Positions 20,754-28,572 of a stretch of 64,000 bases of DNA are shown piece after piece. How positions within the stretch are numbered: the first letter of the stretch is position 1; every line of letters begins with the position of its first letter. This stretch comes from Thermoflavimicrobium daqui (GTDB lineage Bacteria > Bacillota > Bacilli > Thermoactinomycetales > Thermoactinomycetaceae), in NCBI RefSeq assembly GCF_003313465.1, contig NZ_KZ845664.1, positions 434,001 through 498,000 on the forward strand, written 5' to 3'. The notes under the pieces were generated by a model. That model was not told where the DNA came from, did not search any database, and saw only the letters and a list, made by a program, of their open reading frames with translations. Both the position numbers and the translations under genes were made by a program.

Positions 20754-20806
20754 GAAAGTCGCTTTACTATTTGTTTCATAGTAAAGCGACTTTCTGTGTT
20801 TTTTGG
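20754..20806 (+). terminator. Terminator after ahpF
   Basis: Perfect 16-bp stem GAAAGTCGCTTTACTA / TAGTAAAGCGACTTTC, then TGTGTTTTTT. Confidence 0.93.
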
Positions 20807-21065: not shown

Positions 21066-24000
21066 ATGTCAAATGAGATAATTGATAAAAAAAATGTGTT
21101 TAGTCCTGTGAGTTATGAAGTACTGTATGATCCAATCAAGAAAACAATACCGTTACTTGATGTTAAGATTCGTTCAGAGGAAGATGGAAGTGTATACTTT
21201 GCGGCCAATTTGATTGAAAAATGCATTGAGATTGCCAAAGAAATGAAACCAAAAATGTCAACAGAGTTTTTGGCTGAGATGCAAATGGATGAGTCAGCTA
21301 TCTTCAATAATTTTGTTACACTAAATTTTAAAGATAAGCAAAAAGAGCATCGTATTTTGCTAAAGCTTATGGATCTAATGAAAGAAAAGATGCGATCAGC
21401 AGGAATCAAACCAATTAGTGACCCTCTTGCTATACTAAATAATGGGAAAACTTCTCCTTTTCTAACTTTGAAACGAGAACAAAAGCAATTGATATTTGGT
21501 AAATTGGCATATGAAACCACTGTAAAGCAGATGAGGCAGCAAAAAATTTTACGCTCAGATGATCTGAAGATCAGTTTCCAAACTGATAGACTATTAGATG
21601 ACTTAAAAGAATCAATGGTTCGATATGTTAATCATCACCATGATCTATCTGAAGAGGAAAAAGAGGATATCGAAGAGCAAATTCGTTCGGAAGCATATTT
21701 GGTTGATTCTATACAACATTTCATTGAAGAGAATCGTTTTGCTACAATCAAGCGTTGTGCTAGCTTTTTGTATCTAGATTATATTCTTGATGGGATGGAT
21801 AAAAAAGTTATTAAGAAATATCAAAATGAATTTTTAATGCTTAAAAATTATTTAAAACGATATGAACATTTTGAGGATATATGTACAAAATTTGTGCTTG
21901 AAGCTGAATATGAACCAATTGACATACTGGGCAAATCCCGTGATTTTTTAAATGCTGTTCGTCATGAACAAGTATTTGATTGTTTACCAATTATAGGCGA
22001 ATTATCACAAATGATGATGGGGACAAATAGTGAAGGGAAAAGCATTGAACAATATGGGATGAGCCTAAAGTTAAACGGGATGGTACAAAAGGCGCAAAAA
22101 GAATCTTTTGTTTATCAGATTGATAAGCTAAAGGAGCTAGCTGAAGAGGGTGGGAAGAAAGATTATTTTGAATCCCCAAGAAAAATGCGAGATCAATTTT
22201 GGTACTCTATACGTGATCTTATTATTTTGAAGTACTTTTTGTTGTACTTAGATGATGACAATTATGATCCTATTTCAGAATTAATACGGGATTTAGATTA
22301 TATTACTTCCTTTCATGGTAGTTCAAGTCAAGAAGAAGTTCATAAGCGTTTTAAAGACCTAGCAGAAAATTTCTATGAAAAGCATCAAGATGAAATTGAT
22401 CGATTAAAATCAAACTTAAGGCAGATCAGTCAAATGCTACGTGATAGTTTAAATACTAATTTAAATAAAATAAATAATCAAAAACAAATAAAAGTCTATA
22501 CACGATGGATGACTTTTTTTAAAAGTATTTTGGATGATCAGTTGCTGAAAGCAAATCGAGATCGTATTTTACGAAAAGAACTAAATACACATAATTATAA
22601 ATACACAATCTTAACCAAAGACCCAATGAAAGAAAAAAGTTTATTTAGTTTTGAATATCGCATCGAGTTTAGTAATCGATTTATATATGCTCACTCTGGA
22701 CAAGAAAAGATCAGCTTGGAAAATAGAGTTAGTAAAAAGGACCAAACAATGACAGTAATGTTTTTGCCGAGTGTAAAGCGTGATTCTAGTATGTTAAGTC
22801 AAAAATCTGAAGAGATTTTAAGAGAAAATCAAGCTCTGCAAAAAATCTATATACCTTATCCACCCAAATTATTTACAAATGATCATAAGCAACAAATTAA
22901 CCGTTTTCTATTTTTATTTGTCTATCGATTGATAGTTTATCTATTCTTATTGGCTTATACTAAGCAATTATCAAAAGAAAACCAATATTTTTTCCTTGGA
23001 CTATGGCATATTCATGAATACTATAGTGAGGGTTACACCTCAATGGATACGCTTATTCGTAGATTTTGTAAGGAATTAGAATTTCTATTTGGGATGAGCC
23101 ATCCAGCTGGTTCACAAGGATTTGTATTGGGAACAAAGAATGATAATGTGAAAAATGATAATACGAGCTGGTCAATGTATGCTAATATCCGTAAACAATT
23201 CCAATTAGAGAATCCAATTCAAAAAGATAAAATCGCTATCGTTACAATTACCTCTCATAAAACAGATACTTCAAAAGACCATCGTGACAAACAGTATCGT
23301 ACAGGGATTTTTGGTGAAGTATATGGAATTTACAGTCAGAATAACTTAAGTGTTTTTAAACGATTATGGACTTTCTTTGATCATAATGATGAAACCATTT
23401 TTAAGCGATCACCTGTACTGGAAGATATGATGCATCGGTTGTATCAGGATGGTTTTAGACATGTTTTGTTTGTAGCTAAAGCGCCCTATACCAGTACATT
23501 TCTTAATAAAAAAGAGGATCAAAAGGAACTCTATTTTATGAATGAAGAATTATTGACCTCGTTGTTGCCTGCTGAGGATTTTCGACTATATCCCATTCAT
23601 TATCATGTCAAAAGTGTTCATGATATGCGAAAAGGAAACTATCAAAAAAACGCACTCTTTATCGAAGATACTAGCGATATCCAGAAAAATCTTTATCAAG
23701 ATCATGAAGGCCTGGTTCCGATTTTACAACTGTATAGTGGGAATAGCTTACCAAGGAAAAATAATCCTTTTGTTTATCATAGTCTGATTACCTATCAAAC
23801 ATGGAACCGTATTTATAAAGACGAAGTATTAAATAATGCGATTCAAACAGGTCTTATTAATCCAGAGGGTATCAAAGCAGATCTTATTCGTGCACTATTG
23901 CTCTTGCATACAGTTCGTTTTGAAGCAGATAAAAAGAACCAAATGACCATCGTAGTAGATCCATATAAGAGGTTAATAGGAAATGATGGTGTAGCAAGAC

Positions 24001-24107
24001 GATCGGTGATTGAAGTTCCATGGGGAGATAGAGTGATAAAGAATAATCAGCTTGCTTATTTTTCCTATTTGCATAGTAAAGTTTTTGATAAGAAGGAGAA
24101 AGTATAA
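21066..24107 (+). CDS. Large uncharacterised protein, first gene of a two-gene system
   Basis: 1013 aa, no recognised family. The frame is open from 20952, but ATG 21066 has a perfect ATGGAGG ribosome binding site and gives the N-terminus MSNEIIDKKNVFSP. An extended -10 (TGCTATTAT, 20972-20980) lies upstream. Residues 1-500 are mostly predicted helical and highly charged (for example DLSEEEKEDIEEQIRSEAY). Residues ~580-620 look like beta strands (SFEYRIEFSNRFIYAHSG). About 715-1000 resembles a nuclease or RNase H-like alternation: DKIAIVTITSHKTD near 722, RHVLFVAKAPYTSTF near 797, and a C-terminal RRSVIEVPWGD near 970. A hydrophobic stretch FLFLFVYRLIVYLFLLAY lies near 620, in a helical context. 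Stop overlaps the helicase start (TAATG). The comparison with PIWI-like folds is a guess to be tested. Confidence 0.7.
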   Translation: MSNEIIDKKNVFSPVSYEVLYDPIKKTIPLLDVKIRSEEDGSVYFAANLIEKCIEIAKEMKPKMSTEFLAEMQMDESAIFNNFVTLNFKDKQKEHRILLKLMDLMKEKMRSAGIKPISDPLAILNNGKTSPFLTLKREQKQLIFGKLAYETTVKQMRQQKILRSDDLKISFQTDRLLDDLKESMVRYVNHHHDLSEEEKEDIEEQIRSEAYLVDSIQHFIEENRFATIKRCASFLYLDYILDGMDKKVIKKYQNEFLMLKNYLKRYEHFEDICTKFVLEAEYEPIDILGKSRDFLNAVRHEQVFDCLPIIGELSQMMMGTNSEGKSIEQYGMSLKLNGMVQKAQKESFVYQIDKLKELAEEGGKKDYFESPRKMRDQFWYSIRDLIILKYFLLYLDDDNYDPISELIRDLDYITSFHGSSSQEEVHKRFKDLAENFYEKHQDEIDRLKSNLRQISQMLRDSLNTNLNKINNQKQIKVYTRWMTFFKSILDDQLLKANRDRILRKELNTHNYKYTILTKDPMKEKSLFSFEYRIEFSNRFIYAHSGQEKISLENRVSKKDQTMTVMFLPSVKRDSSMLSQKSEEILRENQALQKIYIPYPPKLFTNDHKQQINRFLFLFVYRLIVYLFLLAYTKQLSKENQYFFLGLWHIHEYYSEGYTSMDTLIRRFCKELEFLFGMSHPAGSQGFVLGTKNDNVKNDNTSWSMYANIRKQFQLENPIQKDKIAIVTITSHKTDTSKDHRDKQYRTGIFGEVYGIYSQNNLSVFKRLWTFFDHNDETIFKRSPVLEDMMHRLYQDGFRHVLFVAKAPYTSTFLNKKEDQKELYFMNEELLTSLLPAEDFRLYPIHYHVKSVHDMRKGNYQKNALFIEDTSDIQKNLYQDHEGLVPILQLYSGNSLPRKNNPFVYHSLITYQTWNRIYKDEVLNNAIQTGLINPEGIKADLIRALLLLHTVRFEADKKNQMTIVVDPYKRLIGNDGVARRSVIEVPWGDRVIKNNQLAYFSYLHSKVFDKKEKV

Positions 24108-27100
24108 TGGAAAACTATAAAAACGATTATGGTTATGTTTATGAATACGGCTATAATATTGGGTTGTTTTCAGGATTGGTACAATTAAAATCTAAGCGAC
24201 AGATCTCAATCAAGGATGAGAAAATAAATCGTATAAAAAAATGGCTTGCTCGTAATGACCAAAACGTATCTGCACTTATTATTTCCTTTTGCCGAAAACA
24301 CTCCATTACAGACCAAGTGATGATAGAGAGAGTTCGTCGAAATATTTGCCGGATATTTTTCTTTGCATTTTTTGCCGGTCAACAGATGGTACAAAATTAT
24401 GTAAAGTCTATAGGAATGCGACCAGAGGTTATTTACCTCCAAATTAATACCAGTGATCCATTAAATCGAGGCCTAAATCAAAAAAAAAGCCATGAGGTAA
24501 TCACTCAGGAGGTTGCTGAAGCATTCAAATACGATATGAAACCTTCAGAGATCGATTCTTATCAGCAGAAAGGAAATTTTTTGAAAGCCGATAGCATTAT
24601 TTTATTGAAGGCAAGGAGACGCTATTTTTTATTGGTAACTGATAATAGTTTGTATCTACACCACTTAGTCGATGTTGAGGAGCCATATCAACTTTTACAA
24701 AAGTTATTACAAATTAGAGGTGAACTAGGAGCTAAGACAAAGTTTCGACATATGTCAATAGAAATGCCTAATATAGAAGATATCCAATTGGATGAAATAT
24801 TAATAAAATATGCTGGTATGATTAGGGATAAGAGTTTGTTAAAAATAGTGCAAGCAAGCTCTTACGCTTATTCATTTTTGCAATTTATTTCTAAAAGAGA
24901 TGTTCCAGTGAAGGAATTTTATGTTTCGATCATGGCGCAGGTCGATTATGATTACTCTTTAATCAATTTTTCACTGCCCCAGAGTCATTGGCAGCAGACA
25001 GAAAAAGGAGATTTACTGTATAAATGTTTTGAGACATACCGAAAAGATATTCAGTGGTCGGATTTGGATTACATGGAGATTCCAAAAGATGTTAAGAGAT
25101 TATTGCGTAATAATATTCTACATAATACAGCAATAAATAAAGATGAACTATCAGAATTTATGGAGCATGTAGAAGGGAACTATATGATCTCAGACTATAT
25201 TGAGGGGTTTCAAGGTACAGCAGATAAAAATGATGCAGGTCTAACGTTTCGAGATACTCATGCCGAAGAAGTAAAAAAAGGTTTAAATAACCCTGAGCAA
25301 AAAATTCTTTTTTTAACGGGGAATCCTGGGATTGGAAAAACAACGGCAATTAGTGATGAATTGAAAAAACACGAGAAATTTTTTTTTCTTTATACAAGCT
25401 GCCGACGTGCAGTTAATGACGATATTTTAGATAAGTTTAGCAAAGAAAATCGTTTGTTTTCGGATGACCTAGTTGTATTAAATACCACATATACAGATGA
25501 AGAAAAAATAAATGGTCAAACAGTACATGTAGTCAACGTAGTAATCAATGACTGGGATCGACTTCCTAAAAATGGGAAAATTACCTATCTTAAAAAATTT
25601 CGGGATCGAGATTTTGAAGCAGGATCAACACCTTTTTATAATGCAGGTGATAATGAATTTAGAGAGCTTTATCAAGCGCGACCGGGAGTGTTACAGCGGT
25701 TATCTGAAGGGATTTGCGAACAGATAAACAATCCAAGGATTAATAAAGTGATAGGGACGTTTTCTATTCAAGCACTGAAAAGAACAAGGCGAAAAAGTAA
25801 TACCATGGAGCATATTTATCGAATGTTTCCTTTTGTAAAAAAGCGAGCAGAGACAGATATTAGCATCAACCTAGATGCATTTGACCAGTTTGTAGAAAGA
25901 TATCCGGTTTGTTGGATTATGATTGATGAAATCACAGGAACAGATGAGGGAGCATACCTATATCAGTTATTGAAAAAGTTTTTATTCAAAGATATTTATC
26001 AAGAGCTAGATTCACAGCGTAGAGCGAAGTGGAATGTAAAATTAATTATCGCTGATGCTTCTATCACTAACGAAACAATTATTCAGCAAAGTTTGGAGAG
26101 TCGAGAATCATTTGATTATCCAAAGGTATATATAACTCAAGGTGAACAAGACATAAAATCATTGGAAAGCAAGGAAATCTCTATATCTGTATGTAACGGA
26201 ACATCACTTAAAGGTTGGTTTGTAAATGCAAATTCTTATCCAGCTAGTAAATTAAAACTTTCTTATCATATTGGGGTACAAGGAATTCGATTGGATAAAG
26301 AGCAAACAAAAAAATCATCAAACAAGCGAATAGAGAATGAAAAAAGGATAGAGGATAAGCATGATGCAATAATTTTGGAAAAAATTTTTACTCACATTAG
26401 TGGAGCGCAACAAGAGCAAATCATTGTCTATGTACAAAATATCCATCGGATTGAAAAATTAAAACAAATGTTTATTGAACGATATATTCAAGAAAATGGG
26501 AAAGAACCACAAGAATATGAACAGTATATGACTATCACTTCACAACTTACACCAAAAGAACGGCTAACAGCATTGAAGGTAACTGATCAAGTACAATGTG
26601 TATTTATGACCAGTTCTGCGTCACGAGGCATTTCCTTTCCTAATGCAACCAAAATTTTAGCAGTTCTACAAACCTTTCGCTTGGAAAGGGAATTGGTAGA
26701 ACAGGTACAAGTTTACTATCGGATGAGAGGGCATAAAGAATGGGATCATGGCAAGGAAAAAATGATTGAATTTTTTGTTGTAGATTCCTATGTATATGAT
26801 CTAAAAACTGAACAAGGACAGAAAGATCGAACATTAATTCACTTGCTATCCTTTTTAACACTTGTTCGAGCTTGTTTAGTTAGCCGAATGTTTGGTGAGT
26901 CTAAGATTGGGAGAAATTCATTTAGTCTTGTTCCATTGGGGGGGAAGGGAATTACCCCTATCCAGAATAGCATAATCCAAGATGTAGCAGAGATTATCAG
27001 ACTATCAAAAAAAGAACTTGCAAGAAAAGGGAGATTTGACTTATTACGTGAATTAACAGAGGAACTGGAGCGTGTATTCGGTACTATTCAAGTGCAGACA

Positions 27101-27748
27101 AACGATGAGATCTATCGAACAGGGTATGAGCCAGATAATATATTTCAAAGATTTGTAGATTGTGCAAAATATAATTTGGCCAATCTGCTTGATTTTCAAC
27201 CTTTTCATTCGTATTTTTTTGTCAATGGCATGATTATTTTCCGTATACAAAAAGAGTTTAGTCAAAGAGCATCTTTTTCTGTTTCTGATCGTCAGAGTAA
27301 CCTAGAGTTGAAACAAAAAATAAAACAAGTAAAAAATACAGATCTTTCAGATGACCTTAAGAAAAAACTAAATCGAATTTATGATTTACTTGACTATGAA
27401 CAAAGGCAACAAGGTAAATTAGCTAATGTGTTTCGGGAGGAGCTTTTTGGTCAGCAAAGGTATGTCGCTTTTCCGATCCTTGCTTTTACAATGGTTGAAC
27501 AGTTAACTAAAAAGAAAACACCTCAAAATCTTGAGGAAAATTATTTAGATGTCTTGCGTGGTCTGGTTCAATCTTTTACCGATGTGTCTTCTGTTACACC
27601 AATTACCTCAGATTATCAAAAGATACCCTTTATTACCTTTCAAAGTGATGCTTTAGAACAAATGTTTACTAATCGGTTTCAACGTAACCAATTATTTGCT
27701 TCTACAGAAACAAATATGATAAACTTACTTCTTTTAGCTGAAATATAA
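24107..27748 (+). CDS. Large SF2-like helicase/ATPase, second gene of a two-gene system
   Basis: 1213 aa. Walker A GNPGIGKT at 405-412, Walker B WIMIDEIT with D607/E608, then a second RecA-like half with SSASRGISFPNATK at ~836-848 (motif V type) and EQVQVYYRMRGH near 865-876 in the place of motif VI. This is an SF2-like translocase, not a simple AAA ATPase. Residues 1-330 are an extra N-terminal region whose YLQINTSDPLNRG ... ADSIILLKARRRYFLLVTDNS has the acid-strand-strand look of a restriction-endonuclease fold, unproven. Residues 890-1213 are a helical C-terminal extension. ATG overlaps the stop of the first gene by one base, so the two are coupled. No family is recognised. A defence or mobile-element role is inferred from size, coupling and island location. 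Confidence 0.75.
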   Translation: MENYKNDYGYVYEYGYNIGLFSGLVQLKSKRQISIKDEKINRIKKWLARNDQNVSALIISFCRKHSITDQVMIERVRRNICRIFFFAFFAGQQMVQNYVKSIGMRPEVIYLQINTSDPLNRGLNQKKSHEVITQEVAEAFKYDMKPSEIDSYQQKGNFLKADSIILLKARRRYFLLVTDNSLYLHHLVDVEEPYQLLQKLLQIRGELGAKTKFRHMSIEMPNIEDIQLDEILIKYAGMIRDKSLLKIVQASSYAYSFLQFISKRDVPVKEFYVSIMAQVDYDYSLINFSLPQSHWQQTEKGDLLYKCFETYRKDIQWSDLDYMEIPKDVKRLLRNNILHNTAINKDELSEFMEHVEGNYMISDYIEGFQGTADKNDAGLTFRDTHAEEVKKGLNNPEQKILFLTGNPGIGKTTAISDELKKHEKFFFLYTSCRRAVNDDILDKFSKENRLFSDDLVVLNTTYTDEEKINGQTVHVVNVVINDWDRLPKNGKITYLKKFRDRDFEAGSTPFYNAGDNEFRELYQARPGVLQRLSEGICEQINNPRINKVIGTFSIQALKRTRRKSNTMEHIYRMFPFVKKRAETDISINLDAFDQFVERYPVCWIMIDEITGTDEGAYLYQLLKKFLFKDIYQELDSQRRAKWNVKLIIADASITNETIIQQSLESRESFDYPKVYITQGEQDIKSLESKEISISVCNGTSLKGWFVNANSYPASKLKLSYHIGVQGIRLDKEQTKKSSNKRIENEKRIEDKHDAIILEKIFTHISGAQQEQIIVYVQNIHRIEKLKQMFIERYIQENGKEPQEYEQYMTITSQLTPKERLTALKVTDQVQCVFMTSSASRGISFPNATKILAVLQTFRLERELVEQVQVYYRMRGHKEWDHGKEKMIEFFVVDSYVYDLKTEQGQKDRTLIHLLSFLTLVRACLVSRMFGESKIGRNSFSLVPLGGKGITPIQNSIIQDVAEIIRLSKKELARKGRFDLLRELTEELERVFGTIQVQTNDEIYRTGYEPDNIFQRFVDCAKYNLANLLDFQPFHSYFFVNGMIIFRIQKEFSQRASFSVSDRQSNLELKQKIKQVKNTDLSDDLKKKLNRIYDLLDYEQRQQGKLANVFREELFGQQRYVAFPILAFTMVEQLTKKKTPQNLEENYLDVLRGLVQSFTDVSSVTPITSDYQKIPFITFQSDALEQMFTNRFQRNQLFASTETNMINLLLLAEI

Positions 27749-27982: not shown

Positions 27983-28035
27983 GCAAAGTCCCATCCGTCT
28001 AATCTATTAATTAATAAACAGATGGGACTTTTTGA
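27983..28035. terminator. Hairpin beside the second decayed sufT copy
   Basis: Stem AAAGTCCCATC / GATGGGACTTTTT with an AT-rich loop and T-rich tails in both directions. It terminates the helicase gene transcript or the minus-strand pseudogene. Sequence around it (CAAAGTCCC ... GATTGTG) is shared with the hairpin at 17908. Confidence 0.65.
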
Positions 28036-28197: not shown

Positions 28198-28572
28198 CGA
28201 TTAAGAGGTAATTTAATGTTGGATGCATTAAAACATAGCATTAATGACTCTAGTCTACGGCCTACGGCTGGGTAGGTTAAATATATTGAAAAAGACGAGG
28301 CACTAGGACTATTTGTAGTTATGTTACAGATTTTTTCTGAGGCAAAGCTCGAGGATCAAGAACTTAATAGACTAGTTGTGTTTGATGAAGCACATAAATA
28401 CATTGAAGATTTAGTATCAGAACTTGTAGAAGTTGTATGGGAAATGAGACATAAAGGCACAAATATTATGGTGGCTTCTCAAGATCCGCCAGAGCTGCCG
28501 AAGTTTTTGATACAATGTAAGAGAAGAGGGGAAGTGGATAAAATGGAAGTGGCTAAGAGATTCAGTTATTAG
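28198..28572 (+). pseudogene. Remnant of a HerA/FtsK-like P-loop ATPase
   Basis: Translation gives RLRGNLMLDALKHSINDSSL, then an in-frame TAG at 28273. The frame continues as EKDEALGLFVVMLQIFSEAK, Walker B RLVVFDEAHKYIE, and MRHKGTNIMVASQDPPELP. These are the Walker B, coupling helix and sensor regions of HerA/VirB4-type (DUF87) ATPases. The Walker A part is missing upstream and the C-terminus is frameshifted, so only a broken internal piece remains. Such ATPases occur with anti-phage and conjugation modules, which fits an eroded island edge. Confidence 0.7.

Follow-up and report, generated by a model that had tools for sequence, protein, structure and literature searches.

Two large adjacent genes, here called P1 and P2, were found to form a conserved, co-evolving and near-obligate pair in a 64,000-nucleotide stretch of the genome of Thermoflavimicrobium daqui (contig NZ_KZ845664.1, positions 434,001 to 498,000 of the forward strand; hereafter the window, in whose numbering all coordinates are given). 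P2 is a superfamily 2 (SF2) helicase carrying motifs I, II, V and VI, and the modelled structure of P1 significantly matches the Argonaute/PIWI fold, apparently without the usual slicer residues. On balance, we favour guide-directed interference with foreign DNA as the role of the pair. The two genes lie as follows:

21066 to 24107, forward strand: P1, predicted PIWI/Argonaute-fold protein, 1013 amino acids
24107 to 27748, forward strand: P2, SF2 helicase with extra domains, 1213 amino acids

The two coupled genes of 1013 and 1213 codons reported in the original prediction were recovered, with ends sharing one base within TAATG (24105-24109). The open reading frame (ORF) caller placed the start of P1 at 20952; position 21066 was adopted instead because a GGAGG ribosome binding site lies just upstream of it and because it agrees with the starts of the relatives. 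P2 has a ribosome binding site of its own (AAGGAG, around 24092).

A first genome scan with a single sequence gave zero matches, since its patterns are poorly conserved, and a query built from an alignment succeeded, detecting P2 in no fewer than 238 genomes out of some 85,000, each standing for one species. Loci were fetched for 79 of these 238 relatives for analysis of neighbours and pairing; six were excluded because the contig starts at P2, leaving 73 testable loci. P1 lay upstream of P2 on the same strand in 69 of them. The spacing was within 120 bases in 56 loci, 26 of these overlapping, and exceeded 1 kb in four. As for the four loci without an upstream P1, three of the genomes have P1 elsewhere and in one metagenome-assembled genome (MAG) none was found. 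Both genes occupy separate contigs of one genome in L024 (Epulonipiscium), L036 and L072, so that close linkage is not essential. Strong P2 matches (about E 1e-20 and better, a threshold of our choice) occurred in 47 of 339 surveyed cyanobacterial genomes (~14%), and P1 was found in 43 of these 47; among the remaining four, three have a P1 of subgroup B directly upstream and one has a broken P2, giving co-occurrence in 46 of the 47 P2-bearing genomes. No intact P1 without P2 was found, two genomes carrying scraps only. Distances between P1 sequences followed those between P2 sequences (r = 0.97, and 0.96 within the cyanobacteria), a correlation to which species relatedness contributes.

Conservation of the pair in Bacillota, Cyanobacteriota, Pseudomonadota and Ktedonobacter indicates that these are not chance ORFs. 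The suggestion of an undescribed two-component system gained support: P1 is absent from the family libraries scanned, the pair is conserved in relatives, and no description of it was found in the open-access literature. Membership of a known family and occurrence as unlinked single genes, both named in the original prediction as what would speak against such a system, were examined and neither refuted it.

Other arrangements were seen in individual loci. Tandem P1-P2-P1 (-P2) copies were present in two cyanobacterial contigs (L087:6083-15794 and L090:511-10684), a Ser/Thr kinase-AAA_16 protein and a GAF histidine kinase stand between P1 and P2 in L097:4317-9731, and 0.9-9 kb separate the two genes in a few other loci. 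In a Clostridium MAG (L043:6275-9826), a P2 fragment adjoins a 1183-amino-acid unknown protein (weak trypsin match, E 0.008) and not P1.

Scans of Pfam, NCBIfam, PADLOC and PHROGs gave zero family matches for P1. The Piwi profile PF02171 matched neither P1 nor six relatives, and two cyanobacterial genomes that hold P1 (G295 and G301) showed no PF02171 match; neither single sequences nor profiles of P1 or P2 retrieved anything useful from PDB sequences. An AlphaFold2 model of P1 from 64 sequences (predicted local distance difference test, pLDDT, 80.9; predicted template modelling score, pTM, 0.84) gave 19 Foldseek matches in the PDB at E <= 0.001, all 19 of them Argonaute/PIWI proteins (best 8.5e-7). 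With VIA, all 50 matches listed were likewise Argonaute/PIWI (Z 8.8-10.8), the best of them (Z 10.8) covering 346 residues at 4.6 A. These comparisons point to a MID plus RNase H-like PIWI architecture at residues 538-1004 (VIA range); some VIA alignments begin at residues 137-164, where long Argonautes have N-terminal domains. The parts of P1 read from the model were:

21066 to 22676, forward strand: helix-rich N-terminal half with beta patches, residues 1-537, from the secondary structure of the model
22842 to 23225, forward strand: predicted MID-like region, residues 593-720, from strand and helix order, inside the VIA range
23229 to 23912, forward strand: predicted RNase H/PIWI-like domain, residues 722-949, from strand order

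The original prediction could name no family for P1; AlphaFold, Foldseek and VIA now add a predicted Argonaute/PIWI fold. The profile and structure searches advocated there produced no PADLOC or Pfam match for P1 and no PIWI-RE membership.

Active slicer Argonautes carry a DEDX tetrad in the PIWI domain. In P1, the PIWI-like order was strand b1 (722-736), b2 (744-758), b3 (761-774), a helix (783-794), b4 (799-805), further helices and b5 (840-853). Asp was absent from the core of b1 and directly after b4 in both P1 subgroups, positions being set by the predicted topology; the sequences at these catalytic places are IAIVTITS and VLFVAKAPY, and in subgroup B they are like IGLISYATRP and IILLSHAY. 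P1 therefore appears to be without the usual slicer aspartates and is probably non-cutting, although conserved D734 and E751 leave some doubt on the loss of catalytic residues. The Argonaute MID pocket that holds the guide 5' end follows the pattern [Y/R]-x3-K ... Q ... K. In the MID-like region of P1, Q684-G685 was unchanged across 15 highly divergent relatives; one subgroup alone has K669 and K710, and the basic residues flanking Q684-G685 differ between subgroups.

In P2, the Helicase_C family PF00271 (E 1.6e-5) was the sole match in the same four library scans. The model (pLDDT 81, pTM 0.80) matched the folds of Brr2, RecQ and UvrB with Foldseek and that of Prp2 with VIA (Z 15.5). Its core features were:

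25241 to 26923, forward strand: helicase core of two RecA-like domains, residues 379-939 (VIA model range 366-926, shifted by 13)
25319 to 25342, forward strand: Walker A, GNPGIGKT, residues 405-412, K411 invariant
25925 to 25930, forward strand: Walker B, D607-E608, both invariant
26612 to 26641, forward strand: motif V, SSASRGISFP, residues 836-845, with R840, G841 and S843 invariant
26699 to 26731, forward strand: motif VI, EQVQVYYRMRG, residues 865-875, with Q868, R872 and R874 invariant

K411, D607, E608, R840, Q868, R872 and R874 were invariant in 70 relatives and again in a further set of 11, proteobacteria among them. All four motifs lay where the original prediction had placed them, and its view of P2 as an SF2-like protein with large extra domains agreed with the Pfam, Foldseek and VIA results. 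P2 shares the core fold and motifs of Brr2, Prp2, RecQ and UvrB and differs from them in its N- and C-terminal extra domains and in the unusual motifs DEIT, ADAS and QxxYRxRG.

A RecB-type nuclease shows the pattern D ... DxK ... QxxxY. The N-terminal part of P2 resembles this pattern in its conserved residues:

24314 to 24979, forward strand: putative RecB-like PD-(D/E)xK-type domain, residues 70-291, from model order and conserved residues

The model runs alpha-beta-beta-beta-alpha-beta over these residues, and D162, D/E179, K242, K246, Q249 and Y253 are invariant; from this, a RecB-like PD-(D/E)xK-type nuclease domain is a candidate assignment. The domain matched nothing in Pfam or among PDB sequences, and Pfam searches with 33 P2 N-terminal domains returned only chance-level single matches (HSDR_N_2, E 0.11; TnsA_C, E 0.2). 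In the whole-protein fold search, the match list was filled by the helicase core.

The mechanism that we favour would begin with P1, whose MID-like pocket may anchor the 5' end of a short guide. The guide would pair with foreign DNA, be it plasmid, transposon or phage, and P1 on its target would recruit P2, which would load on the exposed strand, translocate by ATP hydrolysis and unwind the DNA. The N-terminal nuclease-like domain would then probably nick it, and the foreign element would be lost. The defence role, anti-phage or anti-plasmid, is putative. The pair resembles two precedents in its logic, not in its order or layout: DdmDE of Vibrio cholerae, an anti-plasmid system of a catalytically inactive Argonaute-like protein (DdmE) and an SF2 helicase with a PD-(D/E)xK-type domain (PMC12409362), and ApsAB of E. 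coli ST38, in which the helicase-nuclease ApsA and the Argonaute-like ApsB act on plasmids (PMC11096173). It is also quite possible, if short of probable, that P1-P2 founds a further PIWI-superfamily family, its PIWI protein serving solely to find the target, which is then destroyed by a helicase whose N-terminal nuclease has a shifted Lys; such a family would extend over many filamentous cyanobacteria and occur sporadically in Bacillota, Ktedonobacter and Proteobacteria.

Several results weigh against guide-directed interference. The usual Tyr-x3-Lys of the guide pocket was not seen in P1, where Gln-Gly is the sole invariant part. Profile-profile comparison of P1 with prokaryotic Argonautes (pAgos) gave no signal; a control comparison of pPIWI-RE with pAgos gave none either, so that the method is too weak to exclude homology. 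Ser181 replaces the Lys of DxK in nearly all P2 relatives, with K242 and K246 close by. No P1-P2 match was found in phages or viral contigs, and in cyanobacteria the pair often occupies fixed chromosomal positions, as would an old, vertically kept function; neither is typical of mobile defence. The fixed positions leave a housekeeping role open.

That role would be a genome-maintenance module of filamentous cyanobacteria, acting in repair, in recombination or in keeping resident transposons under control; a nucleic-acid structure of the cell's own would be recognised by P1 and remodelled by P2. We regard it as unlikely, yet as the strongest of the alternatives. The recurring chromosomal neighbours, named by us from their sequences, speak for it: 17 loci have pheT upstream, with HPF, lipB and peroxiredoxin downstream in 9-17, and, in a second arrangement, there are purS/purQ upstream in 12-15 loci with psaD/trpE downstream in 11. 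The same tally went against the anti-phage type of island layout proposed in the original prediction, as it shows fixed sites beside housekeeping genes in many cyanobacteria. Rarity outside cyanobacteria also favours maintenance. P2 was found in one of 249 sampled Bacillota genomes, the window's own (three weak matches being Walker A only), and the 79 fetched loci were mostly from filamentous cyanobacteria, together with Epulopiscium, a Clostridium MAG and Ktedonobacter. A maintenance function agrees poorly, however, with presence in only ~14% of the sampled cyanobacterial genomes, with decay, with patchiness in the window's own family and with plasmid carriage in several phyla. Decayed copies comprised fragments in Thermoactinomyces daqus, a split P1 in three loci and further split, truncated or stop-ridden copies among the surveyed relatives. 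Within the family Thermoactinomycetaceae, a single-sequence search found a clear copy in five of 23 genomes (one broken) and a scrap in a sixth, and the pair sits at different sites, the ahpF neighbour lying elsewhere in Hazenella and Laceyella. Plasmid-borne copies were found in Trichormus, Tolypothrix, Nostoc, Acinetobacter, Acetobacter and Cupriavidus; toxin-antitoxin, HNH, WYL and DUF4011/restriction endonuclease (REase) genes lie near copies on plasmids. Patchiness, varied sites, decay and plasmid carriage together fit an accessory conflict system.

P1 falls into subgroup A (Bacillota, Ktedonobacter and most cyanobacteria) and subgroup B (Proteobacteria and some cyanobacteria), homologous over their full length (hhalign probability 99.6). 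No match was found in the E. coli genomes searched. On Acinetobacter plasmids, an HNH endonuclease and a WYL gene, or else a DUF4011 helicase with REase_MTES_1575, come after the subgroup B copies (L012:12706-14712 and L013:13130-18286). Our impression is that filamentous, multicellular or polyploid organisms are frequent among the hosts of loci L020-L098 (Nostocales, Oscillatoriales, Thermoactinomycetaceae, Ktedonobacter, Epulopiscium).

Less probable again is that the pair itself belongs to the anti-plasmid family of DdmDE/ApsAB as a distant branch. It shares with DdmDE a make-up of two genes, for an Argonaute-like protein (in P1 apparently inactive) and an SF2 helicase with a PD-(D/E)xK-type part (in P2 putative), and with ApsAB the combination of helicase and Argonaute-like protein; the invariant Q684-G685 of P1 recalls the QG within the MID motif of ApsB (PMC11096173). 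In contrast, P2 carries its nuclease-like part at the N-terminus, without the usual Lys, whereas in ApsA a D..DVK nuclease lies at the C-terminus; motif VI is QxxYRxRG in P2 and QAVGRVER in ApsA. ApsB is said to be without an RNase H-like PIWI fold (PMC11096173), which P1 keeps. Protein lengths differ from those of ApsAB, and P1, of 1013 amino acids, is encoded first; the Argonaute-like gene comes first in the window and in all adjacent relatives, as against apsA then apsB. Profiles of P1 and P2 matched no DdmD or Argonaute-like chain in the PDB, where the 2024 DdmDE structures should be present; DdmE was not named among the 50 VIA matches listed for P1, which excludes nothing. The comparison with the two systems covered the PDB profile search and published descriptions.

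A divergent pPIWI-RE member in which helicase and nuclease form a single protein is very improbable, and already mostly refuted. The pPIWI-RE module is defined by three genes, REase - DinG helicase - PIWI (PMC3702460), an order shown by the seven operons that we fetched for comparison. The resemblance lies in a PIWI-superfamily protein of about 1000 amino acids, a helicase of similar size and a common occurrence in cyanobacteria; the P1-P2 locus, with two genes ordered PIWI - helicase, has no REase gene, nothing similar to one and another helicase type. P1 was rejected as the pPIWI-RE PIWI protein (hhalign probability 0.2% against the seven members) and as a member of Pfam family PF13032 (no profile match). 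This profile test speaks to the family and not to the superfamily, since pPIWI-RE against pAgos fails likewise. P2 was rejected as the DinG-type helicase: Walker A alone is shared, and the conserved cysteine cluster is missing, well conserved Cys being confined to three scattered columns.

That P1 is no PIWI protein and matches through a generic combination of alpha/beta and RNase H-like parts is scarcely credible: no sequence-level similarity to any Argonaute was found and single-template TM-scores were low (0.16-0.22 by query length), but every significant structural match was Argonaute/PIWI and spanned the whole MID-PIWI module, with good model confidence across 538-1004. Long pAgos such as TtAgo and PliAgo share the MID-PIWI fold with P1 by model comparison and differ in their slicer residues, which P1 apparently has not, in sequence, in the helix-rich N-terminal half of P1 and in its obligate helicase partner.

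The set of PIWI-superfamily proteins that are partnered by a helicase or a nuclease is small (pPIWI-RE, DdmDE, ApsAB and short pAgo systems), and it would be widened by a conserved family in at least 238 species that is absent from the searched databases. Filamentous cyanobacteria would gain a candidate guide-directed system. The fold search revealed an Argonaute-like protein missed by the profile libraries searched, and P1-P2 is compact enough for testing in laboratory strains.

The surroundings of the pair in the window, within a host genome of 3.87 Mb, included:

20754 to 20794, forward strand: intrinsic terminator after ahpF, a 17-bp stem followed by TGTGTTTTTT
27985 to 28035 (approximate), forward strand: probable terminator after P2, hairpin AAAGTCCCATC ... 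GATGGGACTTTTT with a T-run, read from the sequence
28321 to 28572, forward strand: gene debris, an 83-amino-acid ORF (PADLOC mad8, E 3.8e-4; HerA, E 2e-3)

The hairpin 3' of P2 was missed by the terminator scan because its loop exceeds the length limit of the scan. A fresh ribosome binding site and a position between a terminator and gene debris had been described for the pair, and both were found. The defence island with pseudogenes proposed along with them was overstated, because the flanking genes are housekeeping or otherwise ordinary: ahpC and ahpF upstream, and an FAD oxidoreductase, MarR, MFS, globin and recA downstream. The ORF at 28321-28572, directly after P1-P2, looks like a C-terminal scrap of a HerA-type ATPase and is probably a mere neighbour, outside the P1-P2 system.

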